In this document: positions 4,266 to 63,541 of the stretch, piece by piece
Numbering within the stretch: position 1 is the first letter of the stretch
How the letters are laid out: every line of letters begins with the position of its first letter
Assembly: GCF_000012985.1 (NCBI RefSeq)
Contig: NC_007645.1
Location: 1,488,001 to 1,552,000, forward strand
DNA: 64,000 bases
Source: Hahella chejuensis KCTC 2396
GTDB lineage: Bacteria > Pseudomonadota > Gammaproteobacteria > Pseudomonadales > Oleiphilaceae
Direction of reading: 5' to 3'
Position numbers and translations under genes: made by a program
The notes under the pieces: generated by a model
Told to the model about the DNA's origin: nothing
What the model saw: only the letters and a program-made list of their open reading frames with translations
The model's database searches: none

Positions 4266-4305
4266 CGCACAGTCGGAAACAGCTTCCCGTACATCATCGG
4301 TATAT

Positions 4306-4452
4306 ATTAATCAGGCGGATAAATAGCTTCCTTCTATATTGTCCGCCACGACAGGGCCTGCGCATGTCAGGCCCTGTCTCCCGCAGCTGGCCGCCGCGCA
4401 GGCGCATCCATGCGTCTGGCTATTAACATGCCAATATCATTGTCATGTTAAT
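4306..4452 (-). repeat. Structured 146-bp dispersed repeat, copy 1 (reverse orientation)
   Basis: Read on the minus strand this is the same element as at 22699 and 63385. It starts with the inverted repeat ATTAACAT/ATGTTAAT, then carries stems GCGCA/TGCGC, CGCGGC/GCTGCG, CAGGGCCTG/CAGGCCCTG and a final stem ending in CTGATTAAT. It is the most diverged copy. In the last stem an A-T pair seen in copies 2 and 3 is replaced by G-C on both arms (GCAGA/TCTGC becomes GCGGA/TCCGC). It lies between amaB and hglS. Confidence 0.85.
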
Positions 4453-4514
4453 AAGCGTTAAACCAATAAGGAAAATCCTGACCTGTCGAACCGCGCGTCC
4501 TGGCGCGGATGTCA

Positions 4515-22372: not shown

Positions 22373-22698
22373 GGGGTGGAGGATTCTATACGGTTAATAC
22401 TTAGAATACAAACTAAATGTTTCTTGTGTGTTTCAGCGGTCTCGTTAAAATTGCGTTGTTTGGTGTTCTTTTTAACGTTTGAGCATTAAAAATAAGTTAC
22501 AGTAAAAAGTAATAATCTGAGTGGTTGTGTGTGCGTACACGCCGGGGCCGGCAAGCGTTACAGATGGTGTGGTTGCAAACTGATCAGGTTGGCGTTGGAT
22601 TAAAAAGACGTCAGGAATTTGCGCTTGTAAGAATGGGAGGTGTGAGAATTGCTGGAGACTGGAAGGTTGGAATAGAAATAAACGGTTGGAATAGAAAT
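22373..22698. other. Ectoine operon upstream region
   Basis: The 326 bases upstream of ectA are AT-rich near the gene and should carry its promoter. No single promoter stands out. The far end has the 16-bp direct repeat listed separately. A 67-residue open frame crossing into the structured repeat is judged spurious. Confidence 0.4.
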
Positions 22699-22699
22699 A
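22665..22699. repeat. 16-bp direct repeat next to the structured element
   Basis: GGTTGGAATAGAAATA occurs at 22665-22680 and again at 22684-22699, a 19-base period. The second copy ends at the first base of structured repeat copy 2. Confidence 0.85.
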
Positions 22700-22844
22700 T
22701 TAACATGGCAATGATATTGGTATGTTAATCACCAGGCGCATGGACGCGCCTGCGCGGCGACAAGCCGCGGGAGACAGGGCCTGACATGTGCAGGCCCTGT
22801 CGTTGCAGACAAATAGAAGGAAGCTATTTGTCTGCCTGATTAAT
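22699..22844 (+). repeat. Structured 146-bp dispersed repeat, copy 2
   Basis: Five stem-loops in a row. 1: ATTAACAT (22699-22706) with ATGTTAAT (22722-22729), inner CAAT/ATTG. 2: GGCGC (22735-22739) with GCGCC (22746-22750). 3: CGCGGC (22753-22758) with GCCGCG (22764-22769). 4: ACAGGGCCTG (22774-22783) with CAGGCCCTGT (22791-22800). 5: GCAGACAAATAG (22805-22816) with CTATTTGTCTGC (22824-22835). GATTAA near the right end can also pair with TTAATC after stem 1, which would close stems 2-5 into a cloverleaf. No ORF or transposase is inside. Confidence 0.9.
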
Positions 22845-22873
22845 AAAAAGGGGCCGCCAGATTGGAGCCCCTT
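22845..22873 (-). terminator. Intrinsic terminator after tctC
   Basis: On the minus strand AAGGGGC pairs with GCCCCTT and a run of five Ts follows, 28 bases past the tctC stop. It abuts the right end of structured repeat copy 2. Confidence 0.75.
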
Positions 22874-62338: not shown

Positions 62339-63382
62339 GTGACGGCGATCTTTCATTTATATATCCTGCCCTGCCTGAAAATCCTTCTTGTTTTGGCTTT
62401 AGCCGTCATATTGTTTCTCGCCTGTCGTAACGGGCTCCGTCGCAGGTCGGATTATCCGTTGGACTGGTTCAGCTCCATCGCCGTACATCTGATTCTGGCC
62501 ATTGGCGTCGTATCCGCCATCGGCGCTTCCATTCTGATACCTCGTAGCGTCTCCGGCATGGAAGGACTGGGCGTTTTCTATTTATGCGCGCTGGTTCTGT
62601 CTCCGGCTATTCTGGCCATGTTTGTCTGGGGGCTTTCCGCCATATATCGAGTTTCGATAGCGCATATCGCTTTGCTGTTGTTTCGTATGGTGATTGTGAT
62701 CGCGGTCCCCGTCTGGTTGGCGGAGGGGACATCCGGTATTTTTATCCAGGGAAAATGGGATGCCAGACGTAGTCTGACCGCTTCGCCAAAGGCGGCTGAA
62801 GGCGTTATTGAATTAGTGGGAAATGAAGTATGGCGTATGCCTGATGGTGAAGCGATCAGGCATGCTGTTTTACAAAAGCCCGTGGGAACGGAGGTGCTGC
62901 GCTTGAACCTGGAGTTGGATGGCAAGCGCTATGAGGATATTGAGCACTTGGCGGTGACCTATGCATGCTGGTTGGATGACGAACTGCATATTGTCACTCC
63001 AGCGGAGTCGGAGATCGCTATCGGTTATATCTGGAGTTCTGACCCATACAGCAGCAATGAAAGCGCTATTCGCATCGACACGGACGCTTCACTCTCCAGC
63101 GACTACAGGCTGGACGAAGAGCGGGGCAGGCTGACGCTTCCTTTCCCGACGCCCTATAACATGCTTCGTTTCAGTCAGAGGGCTGGCGCAGCAGATAACC
63201 CAGTCTGGATGCAGGCGTCGTCAGCAATGGCCAATCCGCCGCGCTCCGCCGCCTGTCTGCATGGGAACATTGAGGTGGAGCCGAGATACCGGACGGTAGG
63301 TTTATTCATGACTAATAGCCGTCCCGGTAACGCCAGGGAGCGGTTTTGGCGATGGCCGCTTGATGGGAGCGACGTCCAATAG
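62339..63382 (+). CDS. Membrane protein of unknown function
   Basis: A 347-residue protein with four predicted membrane helices in the first about 140 residues (LPCLKILLVLALAVILFLAC; AVHLILAIGVVSAIGASILI; VFYLCALVLSPAILAMFVWG; IALLLFRMVIVIAVPVWLA) and a soluble C-terminal part of about 200 residues, probably beta-rich and periplasmic. GTG 62339 has GGAG 8 bases upstream. No family is recognised. Its stop is 3 bases before structured repeat copy 3. Confidence 0.7.
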   Translation: MTAIFHLYILPCLKILLVLALAVILFLACRNGLRRRSDYPLDWFSSIAVHLILAIGVVSAIGASILIPRSVSGMEGLGVFYLCALVLSPAILAMFVWGLSAIYRVSIAHIALLLFRMVIVIAVPVWLAEGTSGIFIQGKWDARRSLTASPKAAEGVIELVGNEVWRMPDGEAIRHAVLQKPVGTEVLRLNLELDGKRYEDIEHLAVTYACWLDDELHIVTPAESEIAIGYIWSSDPYSSNESAIRIDTDASLSSDYRLDEERGRLTLPFPTPYNMLRFSQRAGAADNPVWMQASSAMANPPRSAACLHGNIEVEPRYRTVGLFMTNSRPGNARERFWRWPLDGSDVQ

Positions 63383-63384
63383 TT

Positions 63385-63530
63385 ATTAATATGGCAATGA
63401 TATTGGCATGTTAATAATCAAGCGCATGGATGCGCCTGCGCGGCGGCTAGCCGCGAGAGACAGGGCCTGACCTGTGCAGGCCCTGTCGTTGCAGACAAAT
63501 AGAAGGAAGCTATTTGTCTGCCTGATTAAT
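63385..63530 (+). repeat. Structured 146-bp dispersed repeat, copy 3
   Basis: The same five-stem element as at 22699 (nearly identical) and 4306. It fills almost the whole gap between two converging genes: 2 bases from the upstream stop and 11 bases from the end of the gene on the other strand. Stem 1 has ATTAATAT in place of ATTAACAT, which changes a G-C to a G-T pair. Confidence 0.9.
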
Positions 63531-63541
63531 ATAAATGGAAG

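Follow-up and report, generated by a model that had tools for sequence, protein, structure and literature searches.

The window analyzed here is a 64,000-nucleotide stretch of Hahella chejuensis DNA (G000:C1:1488001-1552000, where G000 is the source genome, a single 7,215,267-bp contig, and G001 to G006 are other Hahella genomes). It holds three copies of a short dispersed element, treated below as a MITE. All three copies claimed in the original prediction are present, with spans that differ by 1 to 2 bases from those first given once both TA dinucleotides are included. The features are given below together with a candidate partner insertion sequence (IS) from the same genome; each of the five stem-loops is supported by folding, by the RNAalifold consensus, and by covariation.

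4305..4453, minus strand: MITE copy 1, an old insertion whose site is also occupied in G005 and G001.
22698..22845, plus strand: MITE copy 2 with both flanking TA; it is absent from G005 and G001 at the position to which its flanks map.
22698..22723, plus strand: left terminal inverted repeat (TIR) of copy 2, TATTAACATGGCAATGATATTGGTAT; the family consensus left end agrees with two IS630 ends at 19/26 and 20/26 positions.
22820..22845, minus strand: right TIR of copy 2, TATTAATCAGGCAGACAAATAGCTTC; the family consensus right end agrees with two IS630 ends at 15/26 and 17/26 positions.
22699..22729, plus strand: stem-loop 1.
22733..22752, plus strand: stem-loop 2, with the hexaloop C-AUGGAC-G (CANGGANG).
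22753..22769, plus strand: stem-loop 3, with a variable loop.
22773..22801, plus strand: stem-loop 4.
22805..22835, plus strand: stem-loop 5, with the loop AAGGAAG.
63384..63531, plus strand: MITE copy 3; the orthologous site is empty in G005 and G001, with gaps of 4 and 2 nt.
G000:C1:3354618-3355719, strand not given: intact IS630-family IS with a 344-aa transposase; its ends match the MITE terminal pattern.

Between its TA pair the element measures 144 bp, too short for a transposase gene, and 146 bp are inserted at clean sites, where the TA is duplicated. The TIRs are imperfect (consensus TATTAAYnnGGCAnnnAnATnG), and the left and right ends agree at 15/26 positions. Copy 3 lies between two converging open reading frames (ORFs), directly past the stop codon of ORF 62339-63382 (plus strand). 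The ends had also been proposed to pair, TTAATC with GATTAA, into a cloverleaf. As read by eye, TTAATC occurs in only 8 of 37 aligned copies; the part of this pairing that is constant, TTAA(T) with ATTAA, corresponds to the TIR.

The five stem-loops were recovered as five hairpins in the RNAalifold consensus of 37 copies. The window copies fold better than their shuffled counterparts (z scores of -8.8, -5.2, and -8.0), and none of 200 shuffles was as good. Among 104 copies, in an alignment fitted to the model, 95.6% of stem cells are paired and 79 cells carry double changes, compared with 10.2 in shuffles and 27 to 39 in slid controls. The covariation means that the hairpins form and are real; it is no statement on function, as quasi-palindrome correction of DNA gives the same pattern. 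Among the 83 copies whose length is exactly that of the model, variability is lower at paired than at unpaired sites (0.030 and 0.080, respectively), and it is unevenly spread: little variation is seen in the GGA linker or in loops 2 and 5, whereas loop 3 and the linker between stems 1 and 2 are free to vary.

The strong folding, the covariation, the lower variability of paired sites, and the contrast of a free loop 3 with the conserved GGA linker and loops 2 and 5 also speak for another reading, namely, that the copies are a family of host-selected structured RNAs (dispersed small RNAs [sRNAs] or 3'-untranslated region elements) whose mobility is incidental or ancient. G-U pairs could be counted on the same side, since they exceed A-C mismatches on the model-fitted alignment (151 versus 83 cells). 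However, in the 83 ungapped copies the counts are 64 and 41 cells, and the excess is not significant by distinct variants (34 versus 23; P = 0.18) or by rare variants (44 versus 35; P = 0.37), so the signal for a transcribed strand was dropped. Moreover, no match to a sigma-70-like promoter or an intrinsic terminator was found in the window between 22600 and 22950.

The genome-wide search proposed with the original prediction, carried out with a covariance model built from 37 copies, found at least 150 copies in the 7.2-Mb genome G000. Chance repeats are ruled out by these matches together with the folding relative to shuffles. At an E value of ≤0.001, the model matched 126 times in G005, 65 times in G001, and 38 times in G004; four weak matches in G006 are weak relics, and the Hahella genomes G002 and G003 gave no match. 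In a DNA search of 58 genomes of the genus, family, and order, the source genome included, five matched, all within the genus. A single exact 25-nt pattern was found in four stretches of GTDB genome contigs, all from Hahella sp. HN01, in a collection from which the source and near genomes were possibly excluded. No match was obtained in plasmids by a distant search with one copy or in viral contigs with one exact 25-nt pattern. A solitary, near-perfect stem 1 (TTAACATGGCGATGATACTGCCATGTTAA; edges GAT...TCA) occurs at G000:C1:3082867-3082901 (L015) and could be an even smaller derivative.

Orthologous sites with and without the element were compared between a 400-kb stretch of G000 and the syntenic stretches of G005 and G001, which are approximately 92 to 93% identical to G000 at one 12-kb anchor. 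Among the 13 full-length G000 copies in this stretch, only the one at window positions 4305-4453 is common to all three genomes. Another 10 are missing from both relatives at sites whose flanks were located, and the last 2 lack an orthologous flank. For 6 of the 10 absent copies, the extrapolated gap in at least one relative is 2 to 4 nt, as predicted by TA duplication. The remaining four show larger or negative gaps at sites whose surroundings have diverged or undergone rearrangement; the flanks of copy 2, for instance, extrapolate to gaps of -17 nt in G005 and 13 nt in G001, with diverged local sequence. The clearest pair is an occupied site in G005 (5771754) and its empty counterpart in G001, GGTGGT-TA-GTGCG. 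The empty sites, with their clean 146-bp insertions and duplicated TA, indicate that the element is mobile. They bear out the earlier suggestion of a miniature mobile element and correct the accompanying view that there was no clear target duplication. TA is present at both ends of 115 of 123 near full-length copies, the duplication is no longer than TA, and insertion sites favor an A-T-rich context. One G005 copy is nested in an older relic that is still visible in G001, as read by eye from the alignment. That both relatives lack 10 of the 11 full-length copies for which orthologous flanks exist argues against the structured-RNA family introduced above.

Candidates for the mobilizing enzyme were sought with a terminal pattern, TATTAATNNGGCANNNANATNG, written from the two ends of the MITE and then looked for around hits to DDE_3 (PF13358), of which there were 28 in seven Hahella genomes. 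The pattern is present, with 0 to 2 mismatches, at both ends of a 1,102-bp IS630-family IS that has seven full-length copies (one in G000, three in G001, and three in G005). All 14 ends of these copies score 18 to 21 out of 26 against the MITE ends, whereas among 85,966 control TA sites, taken from 1.2 Mb after masking of MITEs, three score 19/26 and none scores higher. Each of the seven listed copies of the IS also lies between TA dinucleotides, and one of these copies has an altered end. Its 344-aa transposase carries DDE_3 and helix-turn-helix (HTH) domains and belongs to the IS630 family according to NCBIfam (NF033545, 235 bits at a cutoff of 100). The enzyme that had been presumed absent thus has an intact candidate gene in the same genome, and the IS is likewise intact in the two relatives G001 and G005. 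Besides this one intact copy, G000 contains fragments of the IS and a second copy (98%) in which about 12 terminal bases are missing and a stop codon interrupts the transposase match. Damaged or incomplete copies of this IS include L165, L166, L169, L170, L175, L177, and L178. At seven loci that belong to other IS630 types (L151, L154, L156, L160, L171, L172, and L173), the score is at most 17/26 at any TA.

A second IS630-type IS of approximately 1,090 bp with different ends is present in six copies that are 98 to 100% identical (L156, L160, L164, L168, L171, and L173); one locus of this group is G000:C1:611479-611916. The ends of this group in G000 did not match the MITE terminal pattern. 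L164, which has a stray fragment from the right end of the first IS beside it, was omitted from the end comparison.

By blastn, the MITE interior and the first IS have only matches of 13, 10, and 12 nt, the last being the end itself; the MITE therefore shares the ends of the IS and not its body. An origin of the MITE as an internal-deletion derivative of the IS was accordingly rejected, there being no internal sequence common to both.

Taken together, the element is in all probability a TA-target MITE that is mobilized in trans by an IS630-family transposase. The observations behind this reading are precise insertion with a duplicated TA, the large number of copies, relatives in which the sites are empty, imperfect TIRs, and, in the same genome, an IS630-family IS whose termini are similar and whose transposase gene is intact; that this transposase moves the element is what we infer from them. 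By class, it is a non-autonomous DNA transposon of the IS630/Tc1-mariner type. The distribution among genomes fits less neatly. In G004 there are 21 matches to the IS, most of them end pieces and several located at contig ends, yet MITE matches (38) are fewer there than in G000, G005, or G001, which counts against mobilization by IS630. The 21 matches, some at contig ends (e.g., L338, L350, and L351), suggest that the first IS is multicopy in G004 and broke the assembly. G006 has no DDE_3 hit despite its weak MITE relics.

REP/BIME-type palindromes that rely on a Y1 tyrosine transposase (RAYT or IS200/IS605) for their movement are likewise intergenic and present in high copy number. However, REP/BIME and IS200/IS605 elements are recognized by the lack of a target duplication, whereas TA is duplicated here; the ends are inverted repeats that match those of an IS with a DDE transposase; and no GTAG tag was seen by eye in the consensus. 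A mechanism of that type is therefore extremely improbable.

The truncated copies introduce an asymmetry that symmetric cut-and-paste transposition does not predict. In a G000 mosaic sample (1.03 of 7.2 Mb, picked around copies), 54 partial matches were found, of which 36 kept the right end, 10 kept the left end, and 8 kept neither by the cutoffs used (P = 1.6e-4). Once pieces that had the opposite end or a further piece close by were removed, 33 right-end and 7 left-end fragments remained (P = 4e-5). The stronger fragments, which have lost about 20 to 65 nt, number 24 and 4, respectively (P = 1.8e-4), and one of these four (5444992) has the right terminus at its end and resembles an internal deletion.

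Such an excess of right ends, and the common microhomology at left junctions, would fit spread by RNA- or one-end-primed copying from the right end, with left-truncated copies born truncated; fragments of the IS630-family IS lean the same way, in numbers too small to count. Full-length copies, however, are precise at TA at both ends, and one keeper of the right end (3242149) has a left terminus nearby and is hence an internal deletion. The joined flanks of 21 truncated copies were used as queries against G005. Eleven left-truncated copies matched in one piece, 10 of them with 8 to 32 extra nt in G005 and 1 with none, a distribution that a later deletion into the flank would mostly produce. For truncated copy 7069895, the element is at the same place in G005; the remaining queries were split, partly mapped, or not found. 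In the alignments, the right end falls at a TA of the empty site or close to it, with the left junction upstream of that TA, in several cases with microhomology (e.g., ATTGGC at 5680002). Truncated copies are also slightly older than the others (medians of 2 and 1 mismatches over the last 55 nt in 32 and 122 copies, respectively; P = 0.012). Junction geometry and this slightly greater age favor left truncation by deletion after insertion, and one-end-primed copying is very improbable. Our guess is that the asymmetry between the ends comes from a stronger right end.

The position of the copies relative to genes was evaluated for 150 listed G000 copies, with gene calls from a simple gene finder. 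None of the 150 lies inside a called gene. The nearest stop codons are at median distances of 36 and 37 bp, and the nearest starts are at 217 and 166 bp. In 13 of the 150 copies, a gene ends where the TATTAA of the element would supply its stop codon (at -8 in five and at -6 in eight), and the MITE terminus thus appears to provide the stop of the adjoining gene; insertion at a stop-codon TA would consequently be nearly harmless. Truncated copy 6994417 appears, by eye in the alignment with G005, to cut a gene start, which implies that the gene finder misses some genic insertions. Copy and gene orientations are balanced (35 ++, 40 --, 34 -+, and 30 +- of the 150 listed copies, with 11 having a side unassigned). 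A sense-orientation bias that was apparent in 15 G000 copies plus a few from relatives was gone with the 150 listed copies. Replication-strand bias was not evident either (of the 150 listed copies, 47 plus and 30 minus in the first half of the genome and 38 plus and 35 minus in the second, with halves taken by coordinate and not from the origin).

The lack of an orientation bias further weakens the reading of the family as host-selected structured RNAs, which we regard as quite improbable overall. Of the earlier suggestion that the copies are RNA or DNA structural units, the structural part stands in that the hairpins covary, while neither a gene-orientation bias nor a significant strand preference on indel-free copies was found that would point to use of an RNA. 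In the proposed IS630-type mechanism, the transposase would bind the MITE ends of about 26 bp, excise the element, and join it into TA sites in an A-T-rich context, with the copy number growing via replication and gap repair. Selection against damage would keep copies intergenic, near stop codons and farther from starts. The five hairpins, folding on DNA or on read-through RNA, may aid persistence or processing. The family is explained without the need of any host function.

The conserved loops nevertheless suggest an RNA lead that is cheap to pursue and falsifiable. The loop 2 motif, loop plus closing pair (CANGGANG), corresponds to the CsrA consensus core and is kept in 76 of the 83 G000 copies of exact model length; A-N-GGA in loop 5 and GGA in the linker are each kept in 80 of them. 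Several GGA motifs in loops or linkers, as in sRNAs that sequester CsrA/RsmA, are thus present, and each of the seven Hahella genomes has one CsrA match. The GGA motif was spotted before a permissive Rfam scan in which the best subthreshold match of a window copy was RsmW, over the whole model (E value of 0.045; 22.3 bits compared with a gathering threshold of 52). RsmW is an RsmA-binding sRNA in which three of seven GGA motifs lie on outer loops (PMC4950607). No Rfam family matched at the gathering threshold in the window, and a known Rfam family for the window copies was rejected. Among RsmW-model matches in G000 (E value of ≤10), 12 of 14 coincide with MITE copies, as compared by eye. Kinship with RsmW is nonetheless not claimed, because matches are below the cutoff throughout, the best in seven Hahella genomes (29.1 bits) comes from at least 150 tries, and RsmW matches below the cutoff appear in 5 of 14 control genomes as well. 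The GGA motifs decay elsewhere (a loose scan of 28 copies from G001, G004, and G006 recovered them in 17 and 21), and loop 5 falls within the likely transposase footprint, which counts against a Csr/Rsm role. We therefore see only a slim chance that the MITE derives from an sRNA, in which an Rsm/Csr decoy (stems 2 to 5, with the C-ANGGAN-G and A-N-GGA loops) would have been captured between IS630-like ends and spread to at least 150 sites, its transcripts titrating CsrA or its copies seeding CsrA sites in mRNA 3' regions. Such an element, if real, would be a bacterial counterpart of the SINEs that arose from small RNA genes.

One marine genus here combines a MITE in many copies, an IS630 candidate partner that is intact, and two relatives with empty sites, so that trans-mobilization, hairpin function, and left-end loss become directly testable. 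A 2007 review states that IS partners of bacterial repeats had not been sought or found, with the exception of RUP (PMC2229807), and later pipelines paired many archaeal MITEs with ISs (PMC3852290). Among the PMC titles and abstract openings examined on Hahella repeats, MITEs, and insertion sequences and on MITE/IS630, none described the element, and no PMC paper combined Hahella with IS630.

Among known systems, RUP of Streptococcus pneumoniae is similar in being a short, TA-flanked MITE for which an IS630-family transposase is the proposed trans mover (PMC2229807), a likeness by description and not by sequence; it differs in its host, and the Hahella MITE is built of five consecutive covarying hairpins. 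ERIC of enterobacteria, likened on the same descriptive basis, is a MITE with TA termini and TA target duplication, with 30 to 711 copies per genome in the examples given and insertions at gene 3' ends (PMC2229807 and PMC10969869). In contrast to ERIC, for which by the review cited above no partner had been sought or found, a partner IS is proposed here. Correia/NEMIS of Neisseria is also TA-terminal, is about 107 to 155 bp long, and forms stem-loops as RNA (PMC2229807); RNase III cleavage, promoters, and an IHF site have been reported for it (PMC2229807 and PMC10969869), whereas a promoter scan of one Hahella copy found none. The RsmW/CsrA-titrating sRNAs (Rfam clan CL00106) resemble the element in their serial stem-loops with GGA in the loops and differ from it in that the Hahella MITE is mobile, scores far below the RsmW gathering threshold, and has no known promoter. 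The Hahella element is a new family within the known class of TA-terminal hairpin MITEs, with a candidate partner.
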